From Ophiura sarsii (taxonomy: Eukaryota > Echinodermata > Ophiuroidea > Amphilepidida > Ophiuridae): a stretch of DNA of 64,000 nt. The position numbers and the translations under genes are program-made. The stretch covers positions 158,440,996 to 158,504,995 of the forward strand of contig CM069441.1 in NCBI GenBank assembly GCA_035610835.1, read 5' to 3'. Below the pieces are notes generated by a model, which was not told the DNA's origin, ran no database searches, and saw nothing but the letters and a program-made list of their open reading frames with translations. Positions 18,420 to 55,491 of the stretch are shown piece by piece (position 1 is the stretch's first letter; the number at the start of each line of letters is the position of its first letter).

Positions 18420-18519
18420 NNNNNNNNNNNNNNNNNNNNNNNNNNNNNNNNNNNNNNNNNNNNNNNNNNNNNNNNNNNNNNNNNNNNNNNNNNNNNNNNN
18501 NNNNNNNNNNNNNNNNNNN
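18420..18519. other. 100-N assembly gap
   Basis: Exactly 100 N, the conventional placeholder for a gap of unknown size. Copy 1 of the duplicated segment ends at the gap, and LINE sequence begins directly after it. Order and distance across it should not be trusted. Confidence 0.99.
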
Positions 18520-19796: not shown

Positions 19797-20435
19797 GGCT
19801 GGGTTCACATAGGAGTATACGGTATACGGTATTCGCTATACGCTATCGGTATTCGCTATACGGGCACGGCGAGTCACATAGGGTAGCACGCGAGCCTACT
19901 CGTAGTAGAGTCATTACCTTAGTTTCTTAGTGAACTTGTCAACTAGAACCATTTAAAAGAAAAATGAGGTCCCATGCATTTCTCAAAAGTGACGGGAACG
20001 TTCTTTTATAGCAAAAATTCAAAATGGCCGCCATACTGGGCCAAAAATTCAAATGGGCACACCAAATTGTTCGGCTGAGCACAAGGATTCCGAAAAGTAT
20101 AGTAACAAAGGCGTCCTATTGTTCCTAACTTACCCTATTCTACGCAATAAATTGTTTATAAATCGTGATAGGGGAAATCAGAACGCCTGTACACACGAAT
20201 TGCAGCCCGCCACATCCAAACAGGACGGTATACGGTGCACGAAAATCGAACACGCACGATTTCCCGGTATACTATACTATACTACACTATACGCAGGTAT
20301 ACGGCCTTTTCGAATAGTGCCGTCGTATGTGGACCCATGTATTATGAAATTACATTGTTTCGATTTAAGCTATACGCGTGCCCTGCAAAACGTGCACCGT
20401 ATACCCAAATAGTATACTCCTATGTGAACTCAGCC
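19797..20435. mobile_element. TIR element with TA duplication, absent from copy 1
   Basis: GGCTGGGTTCACATAGGAGT at the left is mirrored by ACTCCTATGTGAACTCAGCC at the right. TA is at 19795-19796 and 20436-20437. Copy 1 near 4740 reads AATTAGGGTCACAAC with one TA. Both ends carry GTATACGGTATACG-like subterminal repeats. No transposase is seen, and the 119-codon frame inside is not recognisable. Confidence 0.8.
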
Positions 20436-20818
20436 TAGGGCCACAACAAAAATAAATACCTTATACAGTAACACACGATAACTCTGGGGACGAGATTCGT
20501 GGAGTTTAAAACCGTGTTATGTTAAATACGTTGGTTTAAAAGATAAACTCGCGTTAATACAATTTCAAGCTGGTGTCGCATTATTCTTTATGTAATAATG
20601 ATTTCAAGATATACAGCAGAAATATTCACCAATACCAACAAAAAATAAATATTAAGATTATTTACATTAATACCAATAAATTACAATTTTTCTCACAATG
20701 ATATTTAGAAGTTGGTGGGATTAAATTGATAAATTCAATTAATGAGTTACATATGAGGAGCATTATTTATTGTACATTAAGTAAACTATCATTTTAACAG
20801 AAACAGAATGTCACAATA

Positions 20819-21843
20819 CAGGGTGTGTCAAAAAAAGTTGTCCCAGGTTAAAACATGATTTTTAGGTCATGAAAAATCATAAAAATTGCACATGAAAATG
20901 GTACTTATCATGTTCAGCAATCTTTAATGTGCCATAAGAATTTGTTTCTATTATTCATTCTCAAGTTATGGCATATCAAATCCAGTTTTGGCCACTTTTA
21001 ATGTGCAGAGAACTCTTTTTATTAGAATCCTCATTCAGCGTGTAATTGAACATAATCAATCAAATCAATAATAATCTACCTACTAGGGCCTACATGTACA
21101 TGTTGATAGATAGTTCACTTTGAGCAGAAACCATATTTTCATCCATATTATCCATGAAAAACCACAGAATATTGAATAGTAGATGTATTTTACACGATAC
21201 ATTGATGTATCCTTTAAATCATCATTGGAATCTCAAATGCAGTGTTTCAGTTGAAATCCAATTCGTGTCCAAAAGTGGCCAAAGTGAGATTTGCACTCTT
21301 GCTACTGAACTGATCATATCTCGGGAGTTAAAGGCATATTATGTGATCTTTTCCAGAGGGCGTCCTCTATTCATGATATTTTTTAGAAAGTAGATTTTCT
21401 TGCAGATTTACCATTTCCGATCATAAATCATACATACATTCCAAGTTACAGAGCGATACGATTCCTAATTACCTCAAAATCATGGTTTTAGAGTGAATTT
21501 AGAGTGAAAAATATAAACTGTCGGGATTCCGACAGTTTATTTCACTCTAAAACCAATGATTTTGAAGTAATTAAGAATCGTATCGCCCTGTACTTGGAAT
21601 GTATGCATGATTTATGATCAGAAATGTAAATCTGCAAGAAAATCTGCTTTCTATTTTTTTTCGATGTTAGAGGGCGTTCCCTGGAAAGATCACATAATAT
21701 ACCCATTAATTAATGGGATCAAGTGTATTTGACAGAGGACTAATTGAGCTTACCAACACTATTTTTTTGAAAGAAAAAAACCATGGGATGTTTTTTGAGT
21801 TATTTTTCTGACCTCATGTGACACCTGTTTTTGACACACCCTG
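20819..21843. mobile_element. TA-flanked TIR element, CAGGGTGTGTC ends (copy 2)
   Basis: Counterpart of 5120-6077. Its right end reads TTTTTGACACACCCTG then TA. It contains the nested TTAA MITE at 21332-21703 and lacks the hAT-like insertion found in copy 1. Confidence 0.65.
21332..21703. mobile_element. TTAA palindromic MITE family A, absent from copy 1 at this site
   Basis: TTAA (21328-21331) precedes AGGCATATTATGTGATC. The right end is GATCACATAATATACCC. The centre is GTCGGGATTCCGAC. Copy 1 near 5928 reads GGGAGTTAAGGAGTG, so the site is empty there. The right junction is slightly rearranged, so that end is approximate. Confidence 0.8.
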
Positions 21844-22696
21844 TATAAATGATTATGCACAATACAATGTATGCACACCTTAACGTCATAGATTAAGGGA
21901 TTAAATCATATTTCAGAGTTGTGCATCACCAATCTACAACAGTGTTCTTGCATGGTTTATTTCACGAGGGCAACGCCCGATGGAAATAAACATGCAGCAA
22001 TGCGCAGAACGCAAGTTGCCGATTGGTGATGCACAACGCTGAACATGATTTAATCCCGTTCAACAACGACTAGGGATTTGAATGCCATTTCATAAATAGA
22101 CAATGCAAATAGGAACATATTTGTAATGCAGGCCTACGGTACTTCATTATTACAATTTCATTCAATTTCAAAAAACTAAAATGACAAACTAACCTATAAT
22201 AATTAAGTTCCTGTAAGTTTCAAAACTCTATGAAAACAGTTGGCATGGTTATTCCAAAAACAACACACATTGCGACTGCGATCGTGTATCGCGTGAAAAC
22301 ATTATTAGTGTGGTGCGGATATCGGCGCGATAGTTGCCCATAGCAGCGTTGTTTAACTCAAATCGACAACGCTTCGCTTACTGTACTTAAGGTATGGGGG
22401 AGTTTTTGAATGTCGATTAGGATACTCTTACTGTATGCAGGTCAACAGTGATTGCAAACAGGATATTCACTTCAATGTTGGTCTGGAATGTGCATAACCT
22501 TGTCATTTGTGATAATTGACACTGTCTACATAACCATTATACATATAATTTACTGCCTTAGTAGTAAATGAGGTATCAAAGTTGTCACTTTTTTGCATAC
22601 AATTCCCTAAACATGGGGTATCCCAAATCGCAAAAAAAAATCCACCAATAAAACACTCCTAAAAGTGGTTCAGGATTTAAAACCCTCCAGCAGCAC

Positions 22697-22732
22697 ACCC
22701 CCCCCCCCCCCCCCCCCCCCACCCCCCCCACC
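22697..22732. repeat. Long poly-C run with one interruption
   Basis: About 33 consecutive-type C residues, broken by ACCCCCCCCA. Copy 1 has only short C tracts (CCTCCCCCCATC near 7305). Run length in an assembly is unreliable. Confidence 0.7.
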
Positions 22733-23032
22733 ATCAAACAATTATCTGAGTACCCTCCTCCGGGATTCAAAAGTTATGACCTCTCTTTTCTCTAATAAGT
22801 GTGAACTTTGGCGGAGTATATCTGCCAAGGTCCTAGATTAGCAAAAGAAAACATCTAGTAGCGTTATACACATTGCAATTTACTTAGTAGTGATTTTATT
22901 TACATGCATACACATGCAATAAATAGAAACCGTGTAATACACTCAAATAGTACTAACTGTACAACAAAATCAAGCATTTTACAGAGTATTCGTGAGCAAA
23001 TCAAAGAACCCTGTATTTATATATAGTTCAAA

Positions 23033-23275
23033 ATGTGATGTGATCAAGCGAAATGAGTCACATGTCAGCAGTTTTCAATTTTGAAATTAGTCCATCATTC
23101 AAACGTAGGTGGATGCTACAGTATGGTAAACCCGCCCCACTAAAATCGAACTTCTAGTTTTAAACAATTTTACTGAGAAAACAAAGTAAAACATAACATA
23201 AGAATTTATCACTTCTTTGTAACTCAAATCAATATACCCTACATTCAACTCATATCCCTTGATCGCATCACATAT
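23033..23275. mobile_element. MITE with TGTGATGTGATCAAGC ends (copy 2)
   Basis: Counterpart of 7602-7817. The right end CTTGATCGCATCACATAT preserves the inverted match to the left end better than copy 1 does. It holds an extra about 27-bp segment near 23125 (AAACCCGCCCCACTAAAATC), also present in the relative at 40906. Confidence 0.65.
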
Positions 23276-23822
23276 TTGGTTTTTAAACTCACGAGTCAAC
23301 CTAGTAGGTCATACATGAGAGATAGAAGAAGTCCAATAAAGGTTCCTGAATTCACAGATTCTTTATTGATTTGCTCATTTCATCCTTCTTTTTGGCTTAT
23401 TTATGATATTTATGATATTGTTATAATACTGATAAACATAGTACAGCAATCATATATTGTACACAGCAAATATCTTATGTTAACAAATGCCATCTCAAAT
23501 TGCTAGGTAAAATCCTTGTAATGTATGTTGGATTCTTCATAGCTGTTTTAACCCCCTGGGGTCTACAGTGGTTCTGATTGGTTTATTACAAGATGAACTC
23601 ATATGAATAGCCAATTCAAATGCAGCTTTTAAACTATTTCACCCCGATCTTTATCAGGGATACAATTATTTAAACAATGTCTCTGATTGGTGCAATAAAT
23701 GATGTATCCATCTTTCTGACCAATCGGCCGGTAGTTCTCAGGGGGTTAACTGTACAAATGGCTGCAGTGCACCTGTGCTTACACCCCTATGATGTATACC
23801 TGTGCAATCAACAAGTCTTGAA

Positions 23823-24028
23823 TTAACACTTTCCAAGCGGCAGGCGTCAGCAGACAACATTCCAAAATCTCACAAAATGTTTCAAAAATGTCAAAATGAA
23901 ATTAGTCAAAATAATTGAATTTCATTACCATTATTTGGAATCACCATGAGAAATACTGGGAACGGTTTCTGAAAAGAAATCTCTTTTGTATAATATGGTA
24001 AAACAAAAAGCCATGTGGAAAGTGTTAA
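23823..24028. mobile_element. MITE of the TTAACACTTTCC family (copy 2)
   Basis: Counterpart of 8354-8534, with the same TTAACACTTTCCAAGCGGC and GCCATGTGGAAAGTGTTAA ends and about 25 bp more interior. Confidence 0.75.
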
Positions 24029-27000
24029 GCATACATGAACTAGGAGCTACTTTTGACAAAGGTTGCTCCTCATCCTATACTTTGCTGTGCAAAATTTGAA
24101 AAAACACCAAGAGCTAAAACTTAGTAACCAGGGGTAAACAAACCAGAGCTCCTGCTTAATTTAAGTTTGGTGATCAATAAAAAATGTGAGCCACTAGCTT
24201 GTTTATGGCTAGAGTCTGCAGTGACATCATCACACAACTTGTGAAAACAGCATATAACATCTTTACAGGTCTTGTGAATCTGGTATAGTTCGACCAGTTC
24301 CAAATTGGCAAAGCCTCCTTTTACACCAGTGAATTAATACAGAAAAACGCTGACCTGCATAAAAGCAACAAGCGCACCGTGCATTATATGTGTGACGCGT
24401 TCGTGCGGCCAAAACCATGTGTGTGTGGCGATAATCGCGCCCTAACGCTGAGATTACTTATGCGCAAGAGAGATAAAAATTCAATTTTTCTCGCCAATTT
24501 GGAACTGATTTAACTATAGACACTCTATGAATATGATACATATTGGGAAACTTAAAGGGAGCCGCTATTAGAATCCTTCAGCCTCACAAAGCATTTCAGC
24601 AACTTGGTCAAAACCTTCACACAACATTTGTCTCACGATTCATTACTATTATGCCGTATGTACATCAATTAAGATACATCTTCCGAATAAATAACTATAA
24701 TCAAGCTGGGATATTTTGTGAAGAAAGATGGACGAACTGAGAACATATGATCAGTTCATCTCAAAATAAACTCTGAAAAGTATGAATGTGATGTCAAGAG
24801 TCCAGGCCAGGGTGTGAGTGAGTGTACTCAGTGATCACAACTAATTATCAGTTATGAGAGCAAAGATTGTCTGTGCAGTCTCAGCATATTTATATAACTG
24901 TAGTGCCAAAACAGCTTTTTCACAAATTTTGCCAAACATGGGATTAACTTATTAGATTAGTAGCTGAAGATCATCTGATCTCCACCTTCTTATACATAGT
25001 CGAGATCAATATTTCCATCAGATAAATCCTCTTTAGCTCCATCAGATCCTTTTTCACAAAAGCAAAACATGAGATATTCAAAATATCAAAGTTCTTTAAA
25101 ACATCTGTAAATTGGATTGAAGTCACATTAATTGTACTGTACTACTTGCAAGAGGATTTATTTCTTAAAGACCCTCGGTTAGCAATGTAATAAACCTTTA
25201 ATTACAAAGGATCTAGTCAATGTGACCTAGTACTATAGAGACAGAAAGTGATGTTGTTCAACAACTCTTTGGTATGTGACTAAATGTACTCATGATATCC
25301 AAGATAAATCCTGGCATATTCAGGGTCTATATCACTGCATAACTCTTGATGTCATAATCATATTCCAGATAAAATGCCTAAATTTCATCTTAATTACAAA
25401 TCCAACATAATCTTAACACACGTAGATATAGAGTCCTAAATGCATTGTTTTGCATGGTCATATAGTGTTGATCATTGATTATATACAATTAATATCCTTA
25501 TCATTACTTCAATATCAAATAATGCACCAGACCTCCACAATAAAACGATTCAAAGGTTGATGCAAGCTTAGTACATGTATTTCACATTTCAAACAGTACA
25601 GTGATTGACATAAGCACTCATAATAAATAATGGGCCCTTACATTCAGAGGCTCAAATATTATTAAATTGATAAGAAAGATCAAGAAAATTAAAAAAATAT
25701 TGAGGTGAACTCACAAGGCTATGCTATTTAAACACTATTATTCTCATGAGAACTACCTGCCGATTGGTGGAAATTTAGGTGTGTTTTTCAAATATCGTGC
25801 CAATCAGAGACAATGTTAGAATAATTACAATTTTCAAAAAGATTAGCATAACATATTTTCATAAGCAAAATTAGTACAAGATGGTTATATCATGTAATTC
25901 ACCAATGGGAATTCTTGAAAGAGACAGGTAGTTCCCAGGGCGTTAAATTATCATGTAATTCACCAATGGGAATTCTTGAAAGAGAGACAGGTAGTTCCCA
26001 GGGCGTTAATTTACCTCAATTGGGACTGTAAATGACAAAATGCTTTAGGAGCTAGAAAATATGTATCGAAGTTCCATATTTTGGATTTGGGCATAGGTTT
26101 CCTCAAAATGATGGACTATCATTATGACCTCTGATGAATATACACCTATTTGAAAACTTAAGGCCACAAAATGAAAATTGTTTCACATACCCCACGCGCA
26201 TAAGTATGTGGAGTCACTTTTTCTGCATAACCCTACGCCAGGAGGCCAATTTGGGCTTCTTTTTTTATAGTTTTCCAAAAAGAAGGGGGGGGGGGGGATT
26301 GGGCCAAAAACACAATACAAAAAGAATTTCTGCATTATTAAGCATAGCTATTTCTTTCTAAAAAAATAACATTTATGTATGTCAGACAGCCCTTTTTTTG
26401 GCCTTAATTGAACACACCAAACATTATGCACCACCAAACCAAATAAGATGCAACATAATTATAGAGTTATTATTATTAACTTTAACATTAACAGACATGG
26501 GATAAAATATAGAAAAAAGGAAGAAATGAATATCTATAACAACAAAAAATTCAGAAGAAAATACATAATCTGTATATTTACAAGTTGAAAAAGTGAAAAA
26601 TATATTTTTATAATAACAATAACATAAAAATAAAATACCAAGTCAGGGTCAGAAATTCGAGGAGAATCCGAAAATCCATTCTCGCAAAGATTCGCGCTGG
26701 CCGCTGGTAGAGTTGCGAAATCCAAGTTGATTTTCGCAAAATCCTTTGCAAGAATCTAAATGGATTCTATTCTCCCCTGCAAGTAAATTCAAGACTAAAC
26801 AAATGTTTGTTGACTTATTGATCAAGTTGATAAACCATAGGGCAAAAAAATAAAATTTGTTTGCTTGTCCTCGACTGCCCGCCCTAACTTTGGGGCCGCC
26901 CCATTTGTTTATTTTTTAAATTGCAAAAAGAAAGGAAAAAAGTTTTTTAATTTTTTAAAAATCAAATTAAGGTCATATCTCTTTAGAATACTGCGTAAGA

Positions 27001-29663
27001 ATGGTGTGTCAATACTCGAGGTATATCTCAAATAATCATGGTAATCTTGATGTGTAAATATAGCAGCCATGACACTGTCATGACCCACAGTTATAACTAA
27101 TATTGAAAGGGGGGCGGTGTACTCAAAATATTTGTTGATGTGGTGTGCCACTGAAGGTATGAAATCCTGACCAATTATTAGGTGTTTTGATGTAAAAGAT
27201 GTCTAGTTTTGCTGGGTTTCTTTCATGATTTTGGACTCATGTTTTGTTGTTATGTTATTTGGAACCAATGTTTAGGGTTTTCCATCACAAATCATAAAAG
27301 GAATTTTTGCAAAAAGGCAACTCATTAGAGCGGCTACCCGTACACCTTCTATACCACCCCTCCCCTCCCTGGGTATTGAAATCTTAGTCTCACCTTAAGA
27401 TGATTTTGATAGCCGCATGGAAAGTGTTAAGATGATTTTGATTTGCAGTACATGCATAGCATCACATGTAACAGACTAAAATATCCAAGGGAACTGATTC
27501 AGACTTCAATGTGTAAATTTAGAATGTCTGACTCATACAATCCTTCATGTGATGCAACGTTTATTAATTACTCATGCACTTATGATGAACCCTTAATGCT
27601 GGCATCAATGTGCATATTGAACCTACCCTCCTCAAGGTTAGTCAAAGATTAGATGTTTAATCTTTGCCTAGTTATATTTTTGAAGTGGTGAAACTTCAAA
27701 TAAGATATATTTTGGAAAAGTGAATCTATGGCAATCTTCACCTACATTTCAACTTTTTTAATATACATGATTTATTACTATAGAACAAACACAGTGCACT
27801 GAAGTGGTGTTCCTACACCCCCAAAATTGCAGGAAAGGTTTAATCTGGACCTATTTTTTTCCTGAAGGAAGGCGACTACAGGTGAAGGCTTTAGTAGGGT
27901 AGGTTCAAGATTTAAACTGATGCCTGCATAAATACACTTGGTCACACAGAGTTGCCTTGCTAAGATTTAAGAGAGAAATATGACCATATGGAACTTGGTA
28001 TCAGATTATCAGCCGTATTTCATTTCATAATTTTTGGCGACGGAAAAATAAGAAACCCTGTTCTACAGGCAAACTGACCTCTCAGGTTGGGTCAGTCGGT
28101 ATGGCTATTTTTTCCCCTTCAAAATTATCGTAATTTAAGCGATTGATATGCCAAAAAATATTTGGGTCAGAATTTATTTGCATGCTTACATTTGTTCACC
28201 AATTCTTGGGCCAGTAGAACAGGGGTTTTTCTGTTGCCTTATGGCTTATAATATGCCTAACAAATGGTCAAATTGGACAATGAGATTAGGTGGAAAAACC
28301 ATTGTTCACTGTGCCAACTTTGTAATCATATAACCCAATTGGTCTCAGTACAAAATCCTTAAGATAATACTTGGATAACAAAAAAACAGTGCTCTGAGAC
28401 AGTTTTAAGCTACTGGTAGTTCCTTACATCTTCAAACGCGAGATATGTATTAATTGAGTTTAACACAGGAAACACTAATTTTGTCCATAATTACATAACA
28501 ATTAAAATGTAACTTCACAACTGATTATTGGATAAATCAAATTTACCGATTAAGAGGATTGGATCTAGTCACACACCTTTTTGGATACAAATAAAATCTT
28601 AGTCTTTCACGACTAATTATGGCAGCATATCGCTGATCTTTTGACAACATTGTGACCAAATTTTACAAATTGAATTTATAGTAAGCATCACAGCAACATG
28701 TTTTTCTCAGCCTTAAATATATTTTACACAGTAGAAGCAAGTGTGTTTATATTCCAACACCACCACCAAACAACCATCAATAACCACTACATGCTCTGTT
28801 TCTATTTAGTACCAAAAGGCGGTGACACATTAAAAGTTGGTGCTCTTGGAAGTTCATCAAAATACGCACAAGGCAAAGCGTATCCAAGCAAACCGTCACG
28901 CTATACTCCCATCTCAGTAACACGCATGAGAGCGCAACACAAACAATGTTTTCATGCATGGACTGCAAGCATAACATGGTGCGTGGAATGTTATCGCCAC
29001 TAAAATAATCGATGACTGTTTCTATTCAAGATCACTACTACAATACTGGGTTATTTTAGTGGTGATCGCATATTTCTTTTCAAGCCAGCACCACCAATCA
29101 CCACCTTTATGTTTTCAAATAGAAACATGCAGTCACACAGTATGTGATTAAGTAATCCCAAGATTCTAGAAAATATTTTCTCAATTAAAGTTGCTGGAAT
29201 CTTTCAGGATTGACGATCGATCATATTTCAACTAATCATCGCCAATTGATTGATCATTAGATATTGTATTTACACAGAGAGAAAGTGGTCCATTTTGGGG
29301 GATTGATTGTTATAGCAACTGTTACTGCGCCTACAGGACAATCAATCCTCCAAAGTTTGATCATCGGGTCAGTGTGAAAAGTCTTTATTGATCAATATTT
29401 GGACAATCAATACATGCATGCCACTGCCACATACAAATCACACAGTTGCCAGACTTAATAAGCAGGCTATATATAGAGAACATGCCATGATACCAATATC
29501 CAATTGACAATTATGAGGTGATGTTGGGTAATGTCAGCCTTTAGGTAAGAGCGGGCAATATTATTGATAGGTTTTACAGTAGCTGTTTAAGCAATCAGTC
29601 ACCACTAAAACGGGACTTCTGTATAAAAAGATAATGAGTGATGATTGATTGAATGTATAATTA
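24029..29663. other. Unassigned part of duplicated segment copy 2
   Basis: Collinear with 8535-14960 minus the family B and foldback insertions. No exon-like frame is recognised. It includes the near-identical block 24361-25260 and the short tandem duplication at 25888-26010. Poly-G at 26286-26298 is longer than in copy 1. Confidence 0.45.
25888..26010. repeat. 61-bp tandem duplication private to copy 2
   Basis: The unit TATCATGTAATTCACCAATG through CAGGGCGTTAA occurs twice in a row (25888-25948 and 25949-26010). Copy 1 has one unit at about 10758-10820. The two units differ by GAGA versus GAGAGA. Confidence 0.88.
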
Positions 29664-29942
29664 GGCTATATTAAAAATCTCTTTTGTCTCAAAGCTCTTC
29701 AGTTTTTCAAAACCTAATGCGGAATGCATTTTTTTTTTTTTTTTCAATATAAAATATTGAAATCCTTGTAAAAGTGACCTTTTGTATTTTGAATGTGATC
29801 AATGAACGTCTGAAAAATCGGTGACATTTTGGGATTTTTTTAATTTTAAAAAAAAATTACACAAAAAAGATTTTTTTCTAACGCACATCAATTAACTAAC
29901 GCGCGCAGGAGCTTTGAGACAAATGATTTGTTAAATATAGCC
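29664..29942. mobile_element. PIF/Harbinger-like MITE (copy 2)
   Basis: Counterpart of 14961-15200, with the same GGCTATATTAAAAATC end and TTGTCTCAAAGCTC subterminal sequence. It is longer because of a T run near 29730 and an A-rich insert near 29845. Confidence 0.75.
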
Positions 29943-30558
29943 TTGTGCATTATAAATCAATTACTACAAAGTGGCAAGCAATTTTCTAAAGATCAATAAT
30001 CAATGCAAAAAGGTATATTTAACTTCTGAAAAGTAAACATTGATCCATGATATAAACATACAAAAGAGCCATGTATGTAGTGGCAATTGTTATCTATATC
30101 ATATCAATAACGTAAAGTCAATTCTTAATAATGGGACAAACAGTTGGAAGATGGTTCACTGCAACAACACATATTGTTTTACTAAGATTGGGTTTCTACC
30201 TGTGAGTAAGCTATCACCAATGAGTCTAGTAAAAAGACTTCTATTGTAAAAGTCACACAGATTTACTCTGTACTACACATCATACAGTAGACTATGGGCT
30301 ACCCCAAAGAAGATTTCTTGATGTACCCCCCTCATGCTTAGCGCCCCTACAGTACCAGCAGGGCTTATCACCAAAACAAACAGTGCCACACATGTGTTAA
30401 AGTAATTAACAGCTGGAGGTCGTCTGACCTCTACCATAGTAATACATGGTGCAGATAGGTAAACTTGGCCACAAATATGAAAGAAGTTGAATCCCAACTA
30501 AAACTTGTATTTATAAAAATATAGGGTCTTTAAGAAAATCAAGAGAGGACTGTATTAA

Positions 30559-30910
30559 AGGTAGATGACCCGATTTTCAACTTGACGTTTTCTATTTTAC
30601 ATGAAAGGTCATCCTTCAAATTGTTGCATTCCAAAGTTTGAGTTGCATAACTCCAATGGTTCTATTTTTAGAAGCGCAAGGTCAAAAGACATGTGCCCAT
30701 TGAGTAGTACACAGACTGGTTGGTGGTTAACCACCTTTGGCATTGGCAGTAATTCACCACATTTTAGCCTATAATTTCCAAATGAAACATTTCTGGCCCC
30801 TAATATTTTACAGACATAATGAGAAAAATATGGGGATTCGTGTGATACCAAAATATCTTGATCTGAAGAAAAAAATCATAGCCCCAAAAAAGTGATCGGG
30901 TCATATACCT
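30559..30910. mobile_element. TTAA MITE family B, absent from copy 1 at this site
   Basis: TTAA (30555-30558 and 30911-30914) flanks AGGTAGATGACCCGAT and GATCGGGTCATATACCT. Copy 1 near 16374 reads CTGTATTAAAGACAC with a single TTAA. It is quite diverged from the 8666 copy inside, which suggests an older family with long-lasting activity. Confidence 0.88.
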
Positions 30911-31121
30911 TTAAAGACACATCAATCATATAACTTGCAACAGGATTTTCTTAAAGACCCTCGTCTAACCATTTTATAAGCATTTCCTTGCACTGTAATG
31001 TCGATGGGAACCAGTAGACACTGGTGACAGAAATCAGTGGTCATGTGATGAAAGTGAAGCATCCTGGGGTGCATAAAGAAATCTTACTCTTTTGTAGGAT
31101 TAAAATTGCTACATCGGCACC

Positions 31122-31196
31122 GACAGCCTAGCTGCTCCAGTGGTATGACATTTGCTTTGGGACCGCAAGGTACTTGGTTCAAATCCCAGTACCGTC
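31122..31196 (+). ncRNA. tRNA-like sequence, copy 2
   Basis: No difference from 16583-16657 over this stretch by eye: the same A-box and B-box and a GGG anticodon loop. The weak acceptor pairing argues for a SINE head or pseudo-tRNA. Confidence 0.55.
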
Positions 31197-31400
31197 AGAA
31201 TTTTCTATAAAACCTTTGCTTTTAATTTCAAATCATTATTCTCAAAATAGGGACAGAGTTTCTACTTATGCCTAGTCTAATTTGTGATAGCTTACTCTTA
31301 GGTAACACCTAAGTTTGGAAATATAGAACTGTTTCTCAACAGTATTCCAAGAAAAATTGCAAAATACAGCGGCCATATAAGTTTACTCCACCCAAACTTC

Positions 31401-31867
31401 TCATGTCTGTGGTGTGATTTGCTCTTCTGTTCCTACATTATGTTTTTGTGATGGTTCTGGTTGTGGTTTATCCTGTGATAATGTTGGTTGTGTTACTGGT
31501 AGGGAAGGTGTGGAGTCCGACTCCTCTTTGCAAGAACAGAATGGGAATGTTCCACAGCAAGGCTGTGCCCACGGTCTGGGTAACATCCGCAGAAAACTAA
31601 ACTGATATGGCACATGATTTAATGTAGCCTTATGTTCATCTATAGCCGATTCAACTTTGGCTAAGATATCCCTAATGTGAGGGTCCTTATGGTTAAGCGG
31701 TGTTGTTTCAGATGGATCCATCGTGATATCATAAACCAATGGTGGGTTATGGTTATCTATTGATGAACCAAAACATTGACATGCATATGTGTTGAAGCAG
31801 CCTTCTACACCATGTGGGCCAGGCATTAAGCGGACACTGCTGTAAACCACTTTGTAGGTATTTGAAT
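31401..31867 (-). CDS. STS-like: Steryl-sulfatase-like gene, last coding exon (E)
   Basis: The exon follows a TATACAG acceptor and starts in phase 1, completing a Gly-to-Asp codon with the G left by exon D, to read RPRI-D-SNTYKVVYSSVRLMPGP. It encodes the C-terminal subdomain: GCFNTYACQCFGSS, DITMDPSETTPL, a helix (DILAKVESAIDEHKATLNHV), then FSFLRMLPRPWAQPCC and a Cys pair (FCSCKEE), as in STS. A Pro/Gln/Ser-rich tail of about 40 residues, not in human STS, precedes the stop. About 180 nt past the stop the minus strand has ATTAAA (near 31220), a possible poly-A signal. The protein is expected to be a membrane-bound ER-lumenal sulfatase, if the missing N terminus is intact. Confidence 0.9.
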
Positions 31868-32156
31868 CTGTATAAGTAGTACAAAAAATGAATAAAGAAC
31901 ATCTTGATTAGTATCATTGTAAATTCAATATAGTCTATTGCTTAAAACAATATCATCAGTAACATCAAGTTTCAAACCCCAAATAGATGTGTCTTGGCTT
32001 TTTTTTCAGCTGTAGAATGCCAAGTTGCAATTTAATTCTCTAAAGAAATGTTGGAAACTTTGACAGATTGGAAATTTCAAGTAGAAAAGTCAACAAATCT
32101 ATTACAACCCTTTCAAATGATAATGGGACTCCAGACACCTTAATGTGCCCAGGGTG

Positions 32157-34569
32157 CAGGGTTAGCAGTAACTTTAAAAATCGGGAGTTCTCAAAGCTCC
32201 TGAACCCCCCCCCCCCCCCTGAATTTTAAAAAGTGGGAGCTCAATCCAAAAACCAGGAGTTCTTGAAAATTCTTTGAAAATTCTATCAAATCCAGTAACT
32301 CGTAAATTTAGTGCCAGCGCGCCTATATTACCAGGTAATTGTTTTATACAAAAATAAAACAGACAGTTTTTTATCTTCACTTTTTGACCATTTGTTTACA
32401 TGTCAGGCTCAGGTGTTTCACTGTCTGTATTGCTACAAAGTGTCAATACTGGTTTGAACACTTTTTATCATAGTTATAGGATCGAGAATGTATTGAGTTA
32501 TTATATAATAACCTTGGTTATTATTTATTGTAGTGGTATATTAGGCTTATTATTCTCTCAGGGTTCCCAGACTTTGTAATCTGTTGGAAAAATCGCGATT
32601 TGTTAGGTGTGTTAAAAATACACAAGTCTTCCGAATTCTGAACCTTTGCATTTGTCGATCTTTTGACAGTCATTTGTTATCCAAATTTTCAGATAGTTTT
32701 ATACACAAAATTGCTCCCAAAATGTCGCGACCAGGTTTATAGTATTTTCTCTATTATTTGCTCTACGATTCAGAGGACATATTGACGGTAAAATTAGCCA
32801 AAAAAAGTGACTCGAGATACGTATTTTTCCCGATCAAACTGTACACAACGCATTTGTGCAACATGTGCATGAGGAAAATTTAAATATGAGAAGTTAGGGG
32901 GTCTTACATCAAAACATCGTCATAAACAGTCTCTGTATCGACGTGTTCGATCTAACTAGGTACCGTAAAACGGGGTGGATAGGGACAGTTTCAGCACTCT
33001 CTAGATTGTAGTTTTTTCAATGTAGCCTCATGAGCCAAACTTGTCCACCTATAATGCCTTTGAACTGCCACTATAAATAATTTAAAATATGTGATGGGTA
33101 TATATATTTTTCTTACAGAGGTCGGTGTCCCTATTCACCCCGACGTCGGGGTGAATAGGGACAGCATTTTTCTGGGTAGGGAAATCACTAGAATTGAAGA
33201 GTTTTTACCTGTTTTATTCTACATATGGGTGAATATGGATAATGAGCGAGTTGTGAAAAACCAAAACAATCACTTTTAATTAGTTTTTACCATTATAACT
33301 ATTCAAAATTATTTTTCTTAGACGTGTCAGTTAATATAGGTAAAGAGTTATTTAGGTGCTTGACGATCATAAAATATGTTATTCTTTGAATTGAGCTTTA
33401 ATTGATATGTAATAATTCAGTATCAAATGTTCATCTTTTCTACAAATATGGAGACAAATATTATGTGTCATTAAATGTTAAAAATACTAGTGAACAAAAT
33501 AGCACCCTCATCTCTCGGAATATTAGCATAAAGTATATCTGGCACACTTTTGGAGTTGGTTTATGACATATTAAAGTTATAGTTTCAGTTTTAACAATAA
33601 ATATGAACATTTCTGGTCAACAATGGCAAAATAACAGCTAAAAAATTGAAGCTTTCAATCAAGCGTTCATAGAACTGGGTCAATAGGGACATATATACAC
33701 TTATCCAGACCATAGTTGTTTTCTTGTACCCAAATGAGTCAAACTTTTGAGATGATATTATGTCCACATAATAAGCCTTTCAACTGCTCTTTCAAAAAAT
33801 TAAATATATGGAGTGGGTATAATATTTTCATTAAAAATGTTGGTGTCCCTATTGACCCCAGATTTTACAAATTTTACGGAAAAAATGCAAAAAAAATTGA
33901 AATGTAAAATCCTTTCAGAATTTCTTACCAATGTCAAAGAGTATGTTGAAGAACCTTAACAGCTAGGTTCTGGTGCATTTCCAGCTCATTTGCTCAAATT
34001 ATGCAGTTAGGAGCAGGAAAGTTTTGACCACTCCATTTTGTTAGTGTTTTTTCGGACACCTTTATTTTCGATACCCTGGGCTCCACATTTGTTCTTTCAC
34101 ATCAACTGAACCATTTCCTGAACACTATTATATTGCTCTTTAAACATTTGGAAAAAAGAAAAAAATTATACAGAAAATACAAAAAATTGACATTTCAAAA
34201 ACTTTTCCCATTTTGTCCCTATTCACCCCAATGTCCCTATTCACCACATTTTACGGTACTTTAATTGTGTAGGAACGACCGAGATAGGGTATGTAAAAGA
34301 GATACAAAATCAAAATAAGGCTACCTATGAAATTATTACGAAACCATTATTATTAATGTTGCTGTCGGCCCGTCATTCGATGATGTTTTATAGATTTCTG
34401 GTCTGCCGACCGGGCGCTAGGATGAGCAAAATACCTTTCCTTGCCTGAGAGCAGTGCTAAATTTCTGACGCGCGCTGCACTCCCTAACTGATGGGAAAAT
34501 ATTATTTATGGCGCGCACTCGGAGAAAACGGCGCTGTGCGCGCCAAAACACCATTTAGCGCGAAGCCAG
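32157..34569. mobile_element. hAT-like 2.4-kb insertion in the intron, absent from copy 1
   Basis: An exact 8-bp duplication CCAGGGTG lies at 32149-32156 and 34570-34577. Copy 1 near 17597 has one copy in CCCAGGGTGTTGTG. The left end is CAGGGTTAGCAGTAA. The right end, read inward, is CTGGCTTCGCGCTAA, matching at about 10 of 15 positions. A second element (32961-34258) is nested inside. No transposase frame seen. Confidence 0.8.
32961..34258. mobile_element. Nested TIR element with TACCGTAAAACGGGGTG ends
   Basis: The left end TACCGTAAAACGGGGTG with GATAGGGACA is mirrored by TGTCCCTATTCACCACA with TTTTACGGTA at the right. The motif GTCCCTATTCACCCC recurs at least six times inside on both strands (about 33127, 33150, 33678, 33845, 34215, 34232), including an inverted pair meeting at CCCCGACGTCGGGG. 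No transposase-like frame. Superfamily not assigned. Confidence 0.72.
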
Positions 34570-34580
34570 CCAGGGTGTTG

Positions 34581-34793
34581 TGTAATACTTTCCACGCAGC
34601 AGGCGTCTGCAGACGACAGTTCCAAAATTGAACAAAACGTTTCAAATGTCACTATTATTTAATTTCATCACCATATTTGGAACCACCATGAGAATTGCAT
34701 TCAGTAATTCTTGAGATGGACTTAGAAAGTTGGAAAAGGCTTTTAAAACATCTGTTTTGTATCGTGAAACTAATAGCCGCGTGTAAAGTTTAA
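34581..34793. mobile_element. MITE of TTAACACTTTCC family (copy 2 of 17605)
   Basis: TAATACTTTCCACGCAGC at the left and GCCGCGTGTAAAGTTTAAT at the right, with the family interior. It lies just 3' of the hAT-like insertion's target duplication. Confidence 0.65.
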
Positions 34794-35135
34794 TATATTA
34801 TTAGGACATATTCCATATCTCATGATTGAATGCTACATGGTACCAATATTTGTTAGTCGCTCCACTGTCCCATCCATCCAAAGACGGCTGATTTACAGGG
34901 TGTTCCAAAATGATTTATACCGTGTTTGAAAAAATATTACAAATATAAAAACAGCATTGCAGTCCAAATGAAATACCTGCAATAGGAGATGTTTGTTTCC
35001 TACTTTCATCAAGATATTTTTATCGGTTCTTATATGGCATGACATTCTTGCAAATAAGTGAAAACCTGTTTTTCACTCTCAGTTTATTTTGATAATAAAA
35101 CCTACACCAAACTTCAAAACTGCTGCTTAAGAAAG

Positions 35136-35892
35136 TTAGTATTCAATCACAAACAGACAGCACACATTAAGGGGTAACAGGTTACATCTACATTGAAAGT
35201 TAAACATTTGAGTGTGTTATGATATTATTTCATTTATGTAAATCATTTTCTTTCCTTTTTTATCACTGTGTATTATACCTATAAAATTTAAATGGCATTA
35301 CTGACATACCGGTACATAACTTTGTAAATGGTAATTATTACAATGAATTTGAAACTTGTATCATGAGTATTGCATGCAATTGTAGAATTTCTCCTCTACC
35401 CCACTCACTGTGTACAACATGCAGGTCTATACAGTGAATGTAGTGCGCGATGGTTCAGAGAGTCACATAAAGCTGTTGGTCCCGTGTATTCACCCTGAAC
35501 ATGTTAAAAGCTGCAGACCTTATCATTATAGTCGGCGTCAGAGAAGTTCGGCACTTTTTTCTGTGACAACTGCGTACAGCGTAAACAAGGAAGTGCGTTG
35601 TAGAACAGCGTCACAACAGTGGTATCCTTGAGAAGTCGACGCGTCGCTGTATCTCTAATCCGCTTAGTCGCGATTGTATCTATGGGTCACGAATGTCCCC
35701 ACCCACACGCTCATTAACTAAACGCATGTGTTGGCAGTTTTAAAAAGTGCCTAAAGTATTCTGATGACGACTATAAGAGTAGGGTATCATCCCGGGTCTG
35801 TTATCTCTACAAAAACCTAGGTATCAGAGGGCTGCACACCTATCCCAATTGTGGAGTTTGTTGCAGTAACCGACAGATATGGATAGAGATAA
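35136..35892. other. Unassigned intron sequence
   Basis: Lies between the end of similarity to copy 1 and the 60-bp array. No repeat or exon is recognised. Confidence 0.45.
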
Positions 35893-36612
35893 GAACTTAC
35901 CTATTCTAGGTCTATATCGCACACCATGCATATAACCTCCGCAATAATGATAGAACTGACCTATTCTAGGTCTATATCGCACACCATGCATATAACCTCC
36001 GCAATAATGATAGAACTTACCTATTCTAGGTCTATATCGCACACCATGCATATAACCTCCGCAATAATGATAGAACTTACCTATTCTAGGTCTATATCGC
36101 ACACCATGCATATAACCTCCGCAATAATGATAGAACTTACCTATTCTAGGTCTATATCGCACACCATGCATATAACCTCCGCAATAATGATAGAACTTAC
36201 CTATTCTAGGTCTATATCGCACACCATGCATATAACCTCCGCAATAATGATAGAACTGACCTATTCTAGGTCTATATCGCACACCATGCATATAACCTCC
36301 GCAATAATGATAGAACTTACCTATTCTAGGTCTATATCGCACACCATGCATATAACCTCCGCAATAATGATAGAGCTTACCTATTCTAGGTCTATATCGC
36401 ACACCATGCATATAACCTCCGCAATAATGATAGAGCTTACCTATTCTAGGTCTATATCGCACACCATGCATATAACCTCCGCAATAATGATAGAGCTTAC
36501 CTATTCTAGGTCTATATCGCACACCATGCATATAACCTCCGCAATAATGATAGAGCTTACCTATTCTAGGTCTATATCGCACACCATGCATATAACCTCC
36601 GCAATAATGATA
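35893..36612 (-). repeat. Twelve 60-bp repeats each carrying exon end and splice donor
   Basis: Twelve almost identical 60-bp units. Read on the minus strand, each has 52 nt of exon D's 3' end (encoding [17 protein letters not shown] plus one G) followed by the first 8 intron bases. Donor dinucleotides start at 36560, 36500 and so on every 60 bp to 35900. By donor type six are GTAAGT, four GTAAGC (the four nearest the exon) and two GTCAGT. The unit length is a multiple of three and has no stop, so the whole array stays open and every donor is in phase 1. Such homogeneity implies recent expansion or ongoing homogenisation. Confidence 0.95.
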
Positions 36613-36842
36613 GAGAAATTCATGATCAGACATGGCATCCTTATTAGTTAACAATGGCATCATATCTTTGCCATCTATGACACGGTCTTGTGGAGGTGGG
36701 ATTCCCACTACGCTGGCTATCGTTGGCAGAATGTCCATGATATGGGTTGGCTCAGAGATTTCTATTCCTGGTGAAATGATCCCGGGATAACGGACTATGG
36801 TTGGTACTCTGATTCCTCCTTCGTATGAGCTTCCTTTACTAC
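36561..36842 (-). CDS. STS-like: Steryl-sulfatase-like gene, penultimate exon (D)
   Basis: The exon starts after an AATACAG acceptor (phase 1, completing Gly) and reads [20 protein letters not shown], then [34 protein letters not shown] and [23 protein letters not shown]. This parallels human STS from GIYKGGK..WEGGIRVPG through NMDIFPTVA, RIIDGRDLMPLL and SDHEFLFHYC (family knowledge). The end given here uses the first of twelve candidate donors. That choice yields the length expected from STS, and using more distal donors would add up to eleven 20-residue repeats. The frame open from 36738 to 35824 is this exon read on through the array. Confidence 0.92.
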
Positions 36843-37205: not shown

Positions 37206-37901
37206 CTTTATATATGCCATTCCATCCTCCTTCTCGTACTAGATCATGTGTATGTTCCTCCACATGACCACCATTATCAGATGTAAGATACACAAATGTA
37301 TTATTATCGAACCCAAGACGTTTAATTGCCGACATAATTTCACCCAAGCTGTAATCCATCTCCTCAATGGTATCACCATAAGGACCATGCTTGCTATGAT
37401 TTGTAAACTTCTCGGAACTAAAGAGGGCGGTATGAGCTTGGAGGAATGACATGGTCAGCATGAATGGCTTGTCATCATGGTCGGTTTCCAGGAAGTTGAT
37501 CGCTCTCTGTGTCATTCTATCTGCCAGCCGGTCATAGGTCAAAGGTTGCTCGATGACCTCTCTATTCTCAAGTATTAAGCAGTTCATCATTTTGATTCCA
37601 TGTATAAAAGCATAGAACCCGCCACAAGTCAACGATGCTATGGTAAACAGTATGAAGAATCCAAAACGCCCAACAATATTGCGTTTCTTCAGAGCATATG
37701 CCCCCCAGAGCAGGAACGCATAGGTTATAAATATGTCACGGTATATGTGTTCATCCCAAGCCACAAATACATTGCTGTCCCCACGACAATCTCGCAAGTT
37801 GGTGAGTGGTACGCCGTAGAAGGAATCGAACCCCTGACCGATAGGATCCTGGCAACTGTTGTTATCGTTATTCTCACAGTGTATACCAATATGCCATTTA
37901 C
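37206..37901 (-). CDS. STS-like: Steryl-sulfatase-like gene, large catalytic and membrane exon (C)
   Basis: 696 nt from a CCTACAG acceptor to an AAAG|GTAGGT donor, phase 1 at both ends. It opens with (G)KWHIGIHC, whose Lys and His are active-site residues in the sulfatase family. It continues SFYGVPLTNLRDC, then two hydrophobic stretches (IFITYAFLLWGAYAL and FGFFILFTIASLTCGGFYAF), which match the transmembrane hairpin of human STS. Next come EVIEQPLTYDRLADRMTQRA, QAHTALFSS (catalytic His), HGPYGDTIEEMDYSLGEI, TSDNGGHVEEHTHD (metal-binding Asp and Asn; human STS has Gln at the second) and GWNGIYKG (catalytic Lys). Visible active-site positions are conserved. The frame extends into the intron up to 38100, but splice sites and homology end it at 37901. 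Confidence 0.95.
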
Positions 37902-43306: not shown

Positions 43307-43429
43307 CTACAAGCGCTGTAGCATACCCCTGATCTTTAAGCATCTCTGCATATGTGGTTTCATTTGATGGTAGACCTACTTTAGATGATAAGAATGGTAC
43401 GATGCGCATGATATTTCTAGATGCCATAC
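43307..43429 (-). CDS. STS-like: Steryl-sulfatase-like gene, 123-nt exon, copy B
   Basis: Acceptor TTTTATAG|GTATGG and donor TTGTAG|GTAAGC, phase 1 on both sides. It encodes (G)MASRNIMRIVPFLSSKVG, then LPSNETTYAEMLKDQGYATA and LVG, joining exon C as LVG-KWHIG. The human counterpart reads GGLPTDEITFAKLLKDQGY then STALIGKWHLG. It is the exon just before the GKWH exon in this family. A homologous exon of identical length lies 1.1 kb upstream (44538-44660). Confidence 0.93.
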
Positions 43430-50353: not shown

Positions 50354-52556
50354 AGATTTCACGGGGAATAAGTAAACAAAGCGTAAGAAAATTTGATACA
50401 ATAATCAAGAACATGTCCTATACACATAATCCAGACGGGGCCCTAAATAATCCGAATATCGCAGGTGCTTTTGATAATCCAGGTTATACATTGCCTTAAT
50501 CTAGGTAGGCCTACGTTTGTGTTTCCAGATACCTATGTAGGCCTCCCATGAGACCTGAAATGCAGGTACCCGTTGTCCCATTATATCCAGGGACCCCATA
50601 GGCCTAAGCCCTACCCCCTAATCCAGTTACCCCAGGTGCCCTTAATAATGCACTTGATACCACATAATCAAGGTAGGCCCACTGCAGTGTGCCGTTATCT
50701 CGAGATACCCAGGTGCCCTTACTTTATCATAGTCAAGTAAATTAAACGCGGGTGCGAAGATAGCGGACAGTAAAAGTCATATCACAATAGGCAGAGGTCA
50801 GTAATATCAAAGCGTTATAAATGATTATATAAATATCAATCAAGAGTATGTCCTCAAATAATTCAGGTACTAAGGTGCCCTTGATATAATGTAAGTAACA
50901 TGGTGCCCTTAATACACCATGAGCCTAGGCCCAATGTGCTCTTAAATAATACAGATACCCAAGATCTTAATCCGAGTAGGCCTACTCCATCAACGTGTTC
51001 TTAATACCCCCAGTTATACTCCTGTCAGCGCATGTCTCTACCTATTTTGTACCCCAAATAATAAAAAGTTGAATTTTAATGTCAAAATTGAAAGTTACTT
51101 AAAATTAGCTTTTAAATGTCTCCCCGTGCAAGTGTCGCCACTGTTCATATGCACATACTGTATCCAGGTAATTCAGTAGGCCTACGTTCTGAGCGTTATA
51201 GTTTTATAGTCGGTCGTTTAGTTTTATGGTCGGCGTAGTCTATCATCAAGATCACTTGTACCATTTCACGCTTGTACTTGAGCACAATGTGTGCCATCCG
51301 GGTTTTGTTCGGCCTATTTACATTAAATTATTAGTCCTCCAATAGGCATGTGGGGCCTTAACATATAGTATATGTAGTCCCTTTATCATGTTTGCTGTGT
51401 TCTATAAAGCCTCCCGAGATACTACCTGAGTGTACACCCTTAAAATCCAGTTATCACAGGTGGCCCACCTGCGCATAGTATATCCAGGTAATTTGAGACT
51501 CGTTTTATAGTGAACCCCGTAATCCAGATACCACGGATGCCCTGAATAATCCAGACACTCTATAATAATCATGATAATGTACCACACGTTCCGTTTATCC
51601 AGATGCCCCATGTGCCCTTATATCCAGATTATCAAGTAAGGGAAGTGCGGAGGAGGTGGCTTTAGGGTACACTATTAGAAAAAGGGTGCTTCAGAGGGGT
51701 TCTTGGCTGTCCCGTATAATGGTTTAAAGGTTCTTTGATTTTAAAGGCCCCAAAAGGTTCTGTAGAGAACCTTTAGAGGTTCGAAAGACCAATGTTTGCC
51801 CATATTTGCCTATTTTGAACCTTAAAACGGTTCTTTTTGGAACCTTTTAAGGTGATATAAAGGGTTCCATACGGGACAGCCAAGAACCCCTGAAGCCTGA
51901 AGCATCCTTTTTCTAAGAGTGTACGGACTGCCTGCTTTCACTCTGCTCCGTTACAATGTGCACGGTTTGTGCCACAAACGCGTACACTTTTTGTCTGCGT
52001 CATTACGTGTGCGCCGAACCGCGTGCGCCATGTTAAACGCGGTCGCGCAGCACAACATAGAAACGGTTGACATGGTACTGCCAGTTTCTTTATCGTTAGC
52101 AAACGTCGCATTCATCTATGTTACTAATGTGAAAGTGTCACTTTAAGATCTGTGTAAGAGTTTTTGTTTACATTTAGAAAATGTCGTGAAATATTTTTAT
52201 TTGTCGGACGTATAAATGCTTGTTACTATGCGATCTTTAAGAATAACAAACAGCCGCATATACAGAAATGTAGCTATATCCCTGAAGAAAATATTTTGGG
52301 TGAAGACCATATGTCATCACTCACTCCGAAAACCACAATTTGTGTCCGAACAGTAGCTACCCGAGTAAAATAAATTCAACATTTTGGATTTTCACATGTG
52401 ATCCTTTCTGCGCATGTCTGAAAACGGGGAAAAACGGGTATTGAACTATCTAATTAGCTCGTGTATTAGAGGCGCAATTACCACGCTTTTTCAGTTGAAG
52501 AGGGACGCGAGTGCAAAATTATTATTGAACTATCTAATCAGGCGAGGGACCGAAAA
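50354..52556. repeat. Duplicated block of degenerate short repeats, unit 2
   Basis: Starts AGATTTCACGGGGAATAAGT and ends ACCGAAAATTAGTA, matching unit 1 at both ends but shorter by internal deletions. It contains a 252-bp MITE (51670-51921) that unit 1 lacks near 49660. The 2.9-kb TIR element begins 8 bp after its end. Confidence 0.75.
51670..51921. mobile_element. MITE with TA duplication, 252 bp
   Basis: CACTATTAGAAAAAGGGTGC at the left is mirrored by GCATCCTTTTTCTAAGAGTG at the right; the arms continue through GGGGTTCTTGGCTGTCCCGT. TA flanks both ends (51668-51669 and 51922-51923). The interior carries GGTTCT/AGAACC repeats. Unit 1 of the surrounding block lacks it. Confidence 0.82.
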
Positions 52557-52564
52557 TTAGTATA

Positions 52565-55491
52565 TGGCTCATTCCATGAAGTTGGGGCATATTATGTGAC
52601 ATCCAAGTGAAATTTTCAAAATGGATATTTCCCAACTCTTTCTTCTTTTTTAGGTTCTACATTTACCAAAGTCCAATGTAGAACCTTTTTTTTTTAATGT
52701 AACATTTGGTGTAAAATAACCGCACATGTTCAACAGTTGGATGACATTTCCAAAAATCCTGATGCTACATGGACACCATTTCCCATTTCCATATCATTTT
52801 CTAATAAATTAGCTTAAGATGTGGGCCAAGTTTCTATACCTCAATTAACTACTTGCAACCACAAATACATGAAAAGAAACCAGATTTGTCTAGGTTGAAC
52901 ATAACTTAACGAACAAGACATCGTAGATTAACTGTTTTATGTAAAAACTCATTGAAAAGTGACTCTTTATTTTGCAATTTGTATAATGAATTTAAATAAA
53001 GTACATATCAATATTTGTTTGATGTAAAGTACTCTATAAACCATGCACATTGATTACATTATAGTCATAAAGTAAGTATATGAAGTATTATTTACCTGTA
53101 TAATGTTATAAAATGCACTACCGATGCTACATGGACACCGCGTCTTGTAACATTGTTAATAATAAGACTATTCATACTGTTACAATTATAATTACAAGTG
53201 TGAATGGTTTGTCTACTTGTTCATCATATCAAGTAGATACACAGAGTGAATTGCTTGAAATTTATCTAAACACTGTTCATGTAAAATTTACCTTTTCTGT
53301 GTACTTAAGTATTACGATGCTACATGGACACCGTGCCCTAAAATATTTGGAACAGCTTGAACAGGTGCATCTTTTTCAGATCAATAGAGAGGATGTACTA
53401 TGATGTTAACTTTTTATGTTATAAGCACACGATAAAATTAATAACATGGATTGTAAAACTACAAATTACACAAAAAGATAACCTGCCATGAAGCATAAAA
53501 CATAATTACCTATGATACACATACACCATTTCTTTCAATTACACAATAACAATACACCATTGATCAAAGAAACTTAAGATGTCCACTGAAACAAACTTCA
53601 TGCAGTGTTGTTCTTAAAGTACCCTTTGTGATCTTAGTCTCTTTGCTCGTTTCTGATTGAATCATCCTCTATTATTGATAAAGATGATTGAAAAGTTTGA
53701 TCACTTAAAAAGTCAGTTTGCAAAAAAATAATTTAATTGCCATGATGGATTTCTTTGGAAAGGTACTAGTTTTTGAAAATGATGGGTTCCTTGTCTTCAT
53801 CTCCATAAATTCCAGAACGATAGAACTGTCTTCTGAATTAATGTCAAGAACCTGCAAAGCAAAACAAAATAAACCCTATGGCTTAGTATCTTCATGGAAC
53901 ATTGTGTATTGATATTGGAGTAGATTATTTATTCATGTTGCACTTTTTGTGTTGCAGGAAAATATTTATATTAAAATCATGCTGGAGTATTTTATTTATT
54001 ATTCATTTAACATGAAAAAGAATAGCAAAGGATAGAGAACTTAAATGATTTACAATTATTTGTTTTATTTATAGTAAATAAAACTAAAATAAGGGAATGT
54101 TTATTGTGAATTCAGTGAAATGCTAATGGAAATGGTGTCCATGTAGCATTGTGTATTAATATATTTCATTAGATATACATCTCTCATAATACGCCTTTTT
54201 TTCTGTTAAGTGTAGTAAAATGTAGGCAATGTTTTGAATGTTTTGGGTGATGGATAATTTCGAATGGGGTAATTGTTTTAGTCTAATTAGGCAAATTTTA
54301 TGAAATCCTACATGGACATGGTGTCCATGTAGCATCGTATTGGTAAGCTATATTATTAGCATTAAAAGAGCAAAAACTAATTCATTATTAACTTCAAAGT
54401 TTATTAATGATGTGATTCTACAAAAATTACAATTTCAATGAACTATAACGATACTCAATGCAAAATATTGCCCATGCTATGCCCGATGCTACATGGACGC
54501 CAAATTATTATGGCGTCTGTGACTCAAAATTAATATCATAACATGAAAAGAAATTCTGATTCAGTGTTTCCCTTTCAATAAAAATGCATTAATAAATACA
54601 GACATACAAGCAACATTAAGAAATAATTACAATCGCACTTACCATTCACAAAACTATCCACTGTTTACATTTTGATGCTACATAAAAGTCCCGATGCTAC
54701 AACGGGACATCAGCGACTGAAACCTTGATAAAACTAGCCCACATGTGGCAAATTCCAAACAAACCTGATAGCTATTGACCTCTATCCTTACAAAAAGAAA
54801 TATGGAATGTTTTATTTATCTCCAGGGGGGGATTCCCACAAATTGCATAGGATGTTTATCACGATGCTACATTTTATGGTTAGGACACCATGCACACGGC
54901 ACGGTATACTTTTTCATGAATATATGGAATGGTCTTCATGAAATTTATTCTCATTTGCAATAGTTTTCAATTGATAAATGCTCTTAATTTTGGAAAATAA
55001 TTCAAAAATGTATGATAGAGAACTACCCCCATTCAGCAATGAAAACTCCCGATGCTACACGTGTATATTTTGTGGACACCGTGCGTAGCATCGGAAAGGC
55101 AATTTTCATGTTGCTTGGGTGAAAAATCAGTCCAGCGTGACGAGGTGTTTTGGTCAGTAAACTATGAATACATGTATCTTTTATTAATCAAATTGATTTC
55201 CAAGCAATTCTATGATAGTTTTGCTTACATAAAACTCATATTAATTGTTGTGTTTTCCATGTCACGTTTTTTAGCAAAAATGGTCTTGGACACCACCTCA
55301 TTTTTTCTTTTTTTTTTCTTCAAGGAAGGGTCGATTTTTTTTTTTTTTTTCATGGCTCAATACTATAACCTAGTACTGTTTTTGGACACTAAAATTTTTT
55401 GATATACACATAGAGTAAAACCGTTTATAAGCTGCCTAAAGTACCAAATTCTGCTATTTTAACAAATGCCCCAACTTCATGGAATGAGCCA
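52565..55491. mobile_element. 2.9-kb TIR element with GATGCTACATGGACACC repeats (copy 1)
   Basis: TGGCTCATTCCATGAAGTTG at the left and CAACTTCATGGAATGAGCCA at the right, with 26-bp near-perfect arms, flanked by TA (52563-52564 and 55492-55493). About ten full or partial copies of GATGCTACATGGACACC lie inside: plus strand at 52761, 53123, 53316, 54485, 54673, 54693, 54863 and 55051; minus strand at 54134 and 55084; and a palindromic pair at 54306-54336. None of the frames looks like a transposase. The 96-codon frame at 53113 is broken in copy 2. Confidence 0.88.

Follow-up and report, generated by a model that had tools for sequence, protein, structure and literature searches.

The window analysed in this study, the whole 64,000-nt stretch of Ophiura sarsii DNA, carries exons B to E of a predicted steryl-sulfatase-like gene, and exon D of this gene ends in a tandem array with twelve splice donors (donors 1-12). 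The gene has five exons and four introns, all of phase 1, and the exons were placed by homology and splice signals. Exon A, which contains a CTPSR motif, lies 184 bp past the window end (C1:158505179-158505449). Exon B (43307..43429) and exon C (37206..37901) follow on the minus strand. Exon D (36561..36842, minus strand), the fourth coding exon, was placed by homology to human STS; it is 282 nt long when it ends at donor 1 and has phase 1 at both ends. Exon E (31401..31867, minus strand), placed by homology, is the last coding exon and holds the stop codon. The D/E intron (31868..36560, minus strand) is, by subtraction, 4693 nt long from donor 1 and 4033 nt long from donor 12. The five exons are intact, with no frameshift and no premature stop.

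The homology searches showed that exon C aligned to residues 111-341 of human STS 1P49 (E 3.7e-51) and exons D and E together to residues 345-555 (E 5.6e-61). The alignments cover the membrane hairpin region and the C-terminal part of STS. The CTPSR motif, the active-site motif of the STS family, is present in exon A and in the assembled protein. The 612-aa product of donor 1 was searched against a large protein collection; 7013 proteins passed, and the best 120 of the 7013 were listed. The best of these 120, with 77% over 83% of the query, was a steryl-sulfatase-like protein from Amphiura filiformis; three sea-star proteins (60-62%) ranked next by identity among them. The relatives carry the sulfatase Pfam domains PF00884 and PF14707 in precomputed annotation. 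A sequence-only reading of this DNA had called the gene an STS-type sulfatase, and both the homology to human STS and the protein-collection matches agree with it. The predicted product of donor 1 is a complete steryl-sulfatase-like enzyme of 612 aa.

A second copy of the last sulfatase exon was found at 16863-17329. It differs from 31401-31867 at 12 of 468 compared bases, five of them in silent codon changes and seven in five residue-changing codons; its frame is open and its acceptor is intact. Two collinear copies, 4115-18419 and 19304-35127, with blocks approximately 82-97% identical, stand on either side of a 100-N gap (18420-18519). The first copy breaks off at the gap, at a point that corresponds to 35127, approximately 765 bp before the array. 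The pair looks like haplotypes left unmerged where contigs join, or else like an incomplete tandem duplication; if the duplication were real, 16863-17329 could be an alternative last exon. The window also contains a 2.9 kb direct repeat (52553-55498 and 59114-62059, 98% identity, 6.6 kb apart) and three fold-back stretches of 0.4-0.5 kb with arms of about 80-83% (12582-13110, 6127-6508 and 21333-21703), the last two of which form a related set with 3412-3762. Two open frames, 18520-19106 and 57651-58112, resemble by eye the end of a retrotransposon reverse transcriptase. Rfam gave no matches in the window at gathering scores.

The tandem array (35892..36614, minus strand) was reported by Tandem Repeats Finder with 12.1 copies, a period of 60, 99% matches and a score of 1404; the runner-up among the program's 33 rows for the window scored 231. 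Each of the 12 units of 60 bp consists of the last 52 nt of exon D and 8 nt of intron, and every one (12/12) carries ATAG|GT[A/C]AG[C/T]. On the minus strand, the donors (ATAG|GT...) are spaced exactly 60 nt apart, with first intron bases at 36560, 36500, 36440, 36380, 36320, 36260, 36200, 36140, 36080, 36020, 35960 and 35900 for donors 1 to 12. Donor 1 (36555..36560), which yields the 612-aa enzyme, reads GTAAGC, as do donors 2-4 (36375..36500; first intron bases 36500, 36440 and 36380). Donors 5-10 (36015..36320) read GTAAGT, apart from donor 6 (36260), which reads GTCAGT. Donor 11 (35955..35960) is again GTCAGT, and donor 12 (35895..35900) is a GTAAGT that runs into unrepeated intron. With the units aligned in register, 58 of the 60 columns are invariant across all 12. 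The two variable columns are intron +3 (A, but C in units 6 and 11) and intron +6 (C in units 1-4, T in units 5-12), so both fall within the 8 intron bases and none in the 52 exon bases. Chance is excluded as the source of the array itself.

With a unit of 60 nt and a phase-1 intron, every donor is in frame. The length of exon D with donor k is 282 + 60(k-1) nt, with a maximum of 942 nt. Donor 1 gives a CDS of 1839 nt (612 residues plus stop), and donors 2-12 add 60 nt per step, which takes the products from 612 to 832 aa. All 12 built products share exon E and are open to the normal stop; each has one stop, the terminal one, at codon 613, 633 ... 833. The sequence-only reading had described a 60-bp unit across the exon/intron border (52 + 8 nt) with 12 donors, GTAAGC in the four nearest the exon, GTAAGT in most distal ones and GTCAGT in two, and phase 1 splicing that would add a 20-residue segment 0 to 11 times. 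The sequence bears out the unit and the donor types, and the 12 built products bear out the phase. The in-phase layout is weaker evidence than the array itself, because by our own reasoning approximately 1/3 of duplication lengths would be divisible by 3 a priori, and because a phase-1 GTAAG donor reads xGT-AAG, without a stop.

The DNA of the unit has 12 matches in the genome, every one within the array, and thus occupies a single place in the 1.57-Gb genome. Exon D gave 24 rows in the genome: one full match (its own exon), four array units and 19 other sulfatases with 35-55% identity, and the steryl-sulfatase gene is apparently single-copy. Four of the 19 sulfatase-like loci were examined (L014, L015, L016 and L020); in these, the reading frame continues past the exon D/E border, and therefore no intron is present there. 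For comparison with other species, 18 relatives were chosen from the 120 listed and aligned in 19 rows with the query. All 18 align to the donor 1 product without insertion at the junction, and human STS and the 18 relatives run gap-free through RPRI|DSNTYK. The donor 1 product and all 18 relatives have a single HYC...VR..P segment with nothing inserted before the next strand, whereas the products of donors 2-12 differ. Among four short unnamed proteins, the match begins at the start of exon E in P0121 and P0122 and within about one residue of it, by eye, in P0131; the start of the match in P0134 is less clear. The starts in P0121, P0122 and P0131 are as expected if those relatives have an intron at the same place. 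Since the unit occurs at one place in the genome and 18/18 relatives have one copy, the expansion is lineage-specific; it is probably young, and perhaps confined to the individual.

The effect of extra units on the protein was considered on the Amphiura protein P0001, which AlphaFold2 modelled from a 25-row alignment with a mean pLDDT of 75.7 (79-87 in blocks 351-380). Against human STS (8eg3 and 1p49), the model scores a TM of 0.85-0.86 when normalised by query length and 0.79-0.80 when normalised by target length. It shows strands at 354-359 and 362-368, a loop at 369-376 that holds the junction, and a further strand at 377-384. One unit thus corresponds to one predicted β-hairpin plus linker. 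The unit is made of two strands and the junction lies in the next loop, and therefore each unit would add a whole hairpin with the chain direction restored. In the repeated segment, Y443, C444, R452 and P455 (numbered as in the query) do not vary across the 19-row alignment, and each extra unit would add one more such cysteine. The corresponding cysteine of human STS presumably sits in a disulfide. Extra units appear from the model to be topologically possible and chemically risky.

The sequence-only reading had also proposed that the array sets the length of the C-terminal domain. The in-frame additions of 20 residues hold good, but the units fall inside the conserved C-terminal sheet beside an invariant cysteine, at a position where 18/18 relatives have no insertion. 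For these same reasons, the long forms may fold poorly. We consider it highly improbable that splicing acts as a dial for the number of β-hairpins, giving graded sulfatases with a longer C-terminal sheet whose range is set by allele length. AlphaFold2 without an alignment, applied to exon D plus the array, returned a β-solenoid for the array (array strands mostly at pLDDT 89-96, the exon D part below 50). This fold was discounted as an artefact of a known type, because AlphaFold2 makes such folds from random repeats: ten-fold repeats of random 20-residue units came out as β-solenoids in 36 of 50 models (PMC11795689).

The flanks suggest how the array may have arisen. The left flank is TTTCTCTATCATT, the array interior is GTAAG-C/T-TCTATCATT and the right flank is GTAAGTTCTTATC. 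The triplet TCT is common to both flanks and can have primed the first duplication, which would have left the ancestral GTAAGT as the present donor 12. Judging from the flanks, donor 12 is probably the ancestral donor. The +6 C of donors 1-4 is the base of the left flank (CTCTATC in the exon, GTAAG-CTCTATC in the array). The two GTCAGT units are spaced five units apart, and one substitution followed by a block duplication could account for the pair. As read from its units, the array is young or homogenised, because the 52 coding columns show no divergence, and selection is not implied. Selection on the coding part had been considered, since variation is found in the 8 intron bases alone. The idea was dropped and no conclusion drawn, because the flank can explain the +6 C and a block duplication the GTCAGT pair, which leaves one independent change.

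The strength of the donors was estimated as the pairing energy with the 5′ end of U1. GTAAGC (donors 1-4) gave -9.7 kcal/mol, GTAAGT (donors 5, 7-10 and 12) gave -10.8 kcal/mol and GTCAGT (donors 6 and 11) gave -6.7 kcal/mol. The remaining three donors of the gene gave -9.3, -9.6 and -11.7 kcal/mol, and the remaining GT sites in the unit reached -4.2 at best. Compared with the other donors of the gene, 10 of the 12 donors therefore have a normal predicted strength, within the gene's own range, and two are weak. The minimum-energy fold of a 983-nt stretch had donors 1-4 paired at 0.79-0.84 and donors 5-12 at 0.43-0.70, although such folds are unreliable for repeats. This predicted pairing counts against donor 1, if anything, and carries little weight.

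The array, its donors, the frame, the intact gene and the absence of the array from the relatives examined are shown by these data; the choice of donor, the use of several donors and any variation of copy number between individuals are inferred. A tandem expansion would have copied the end of exon D with its donor until the steryl-sulfatase gene held twelve copies, most of them presumably capable of binding U1. Donor 1, with a strength like that of the gene's other donors and the shortest exon, would give the conserved 612-aa enzyme, and the downstream donors would compete for minor in-frame forms with at least one extra 20-residue unit. We give even credence to this reading, in which donor 1 is the main site and makes the conserved enzyme and the downstream donors leak into longer in-frame forms. 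Against donor 1 as the main site, the downstream GTAAGT donors are slightly stronger than donors 1-4 by the U1 energies. Competition among identical strong donors often ends in favour of the one closest to the acceptor, which here would be donor 12 rather than donor 1. The searches of the protein collection gave no near-identical protein among the matches listed for products of the gene with or without extra units. A query of exon D, one extra unit and exon E gave 30 proteins, the best of which (75% over 58% of the query) covered exon E only. The sources 'lgn' and 'ena' of this collection are taken by us to include assembled reads. The sequence-only reading had proposed a VNTR that directly tunes splice choice; as far as one assembly goes, this is a plausible proposal.

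The array may instead be inert, which we regard as unlikely though worth serious weight: exon definition would pick donor 1 almost always, the other eleven units would be spliced out as intron, and the phase would be accidental. The conserved protein is the product of donor 1, which also gives the shortest exon (282 nt), and extra units occur in none of the 18 aligned homologues nor in any listed database protein. The pattern of variation needs no selection either. For donors 5, 7-10 and 12 to stay completely silent, an extra signal would nevertheless be needed, because their local sequence is that of donor 1 and their predicted U1 pairing is slightly stronger. Human IFI6, in which downstream units are used, also speaks against an inert array.

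A little less probable is that the donors near the acceptor win. Many units would then be present in most transcripts, the normal enzyme would be minor, and the allele would amount to a partial loss of function, perhaps confined to the animal that was sequenced. Donors 5, 7-10 and 12 are of the stronger class (-10.8 vs -9.7) and less paired in the predicted fold, the inserted units would adjoin the invariant cysteine of the C-terminal sheet, and the array is missing from the aligned relatives. A loss-of-function allele fits poorly with five exons free of frameshift or stop. An exon D of up to 942 nt would also be unfavourable if exons are recognised across long introns, as is generally held.

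An assembly error, with one or few units multiplied or the unit count wrong, is very unlikely. In its favour are the near identity of the copies and a scaffold gap in the window, at which the probable second haplotype breaks off; the break corresponds to 35127, approximately 765 bp before the array. However, 720 bp is short for long reads, and the chromosome-scale assembly (first scaffold 159.6 Mb, 748 scaffolds) suggests that long reads were used. The order of the variants (four C-type, then T-type, with GTCAGT five apart) is also unlikely to be invented by error. We place next to no belief in new small introns or exons within the array, an intron gain through duplicated AG|GT sites: each unit has two AGGT (GGAG|GTTA and ATAG|GTAA), each after codon base 1 so that removal is frame-neutral, but the two smallest introns of this kind would measure 24 nt and 84 nt, the pyrimidine tract is poor by eye, and the piece duplicated in potato came with a complete acceptor, including its branch site and tract (PMC4974935).

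The locus is a natural test of which of many near-identical donors the spliceosome chooses with one acceptor. The units differ at two intron positions only, and the effects of position, +6 (C/T) and +3 (A/C) are therefore separable in one long-read cDNA experiment. The locus also shows a tandem repeat arising over an exon border with the reading frame unbroken. Should several donors be in use, the locus would be a counterpart of human IFI6 with a larger unit, in an enzyme that has a solved homologue.

Several known systems resemble this array in part. In potato RdRp, a tandem duplication over a splice border led to intron gain (PMC4974935). The duplication there, as here, spans an exon/intron border and multiplies splice signals; the acceptor side was duplicated and a new intron formed in potato, whereas here the donor side is present twelve times without a good acceptor. 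The MSY2 minisatellite of human DDX3Y holds transcription starts in the repeat, with donors downstream of it (PMC3039753). In both cases a tandem repeat adjoins exon ends that are, or here would be, alternatively spliced, and the present array differs in having one donor per unit. Human STS is a homologous protein (exons C and D+E vs 1P49) and, unlike the array gene, has a single copy of the segment, as the 18 aligned relatives do.

The closest parallel is human IFI6. Its unit is 12 nt, and its isoforms differ by 4 residues, in frame. The reading frame is preserved in IFI6, and here it is preserved in the product of every donor (12/12). The donor minisatellite of human IFI6 was reportedly described by Turri, Cuin and Porter in 1995 (Nucleic Acids Res 23:1854). 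Two downstream repeat units of IFI6 (G1P3, 6-16) serve as donors and three mRNAs are made, of which the 130-aa form predominates (PMC4526556). In both genes, a tandem repeat at an exon end supplies several donors, and 12/12 units are donor-bearing here. The design is thus already known, since a minisatellite with several donors has been published for human IFI6. IFI6 alone has this same design among the cases compared in detail (PMC2572611, PMC4526556, PMC2915984, PMC12783039, PMC3039753 and PMC4974935), and further published cases are possible. Unlike that of IFI6, the unit here is 60 nt, mostly coding, and includes a piece of a conserved enzyme fold, with donors known from sequence alone. 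What is new is the size of the unit, together with the correspondence of each unit to one predicted β-hairpin of a conserved enzyme.
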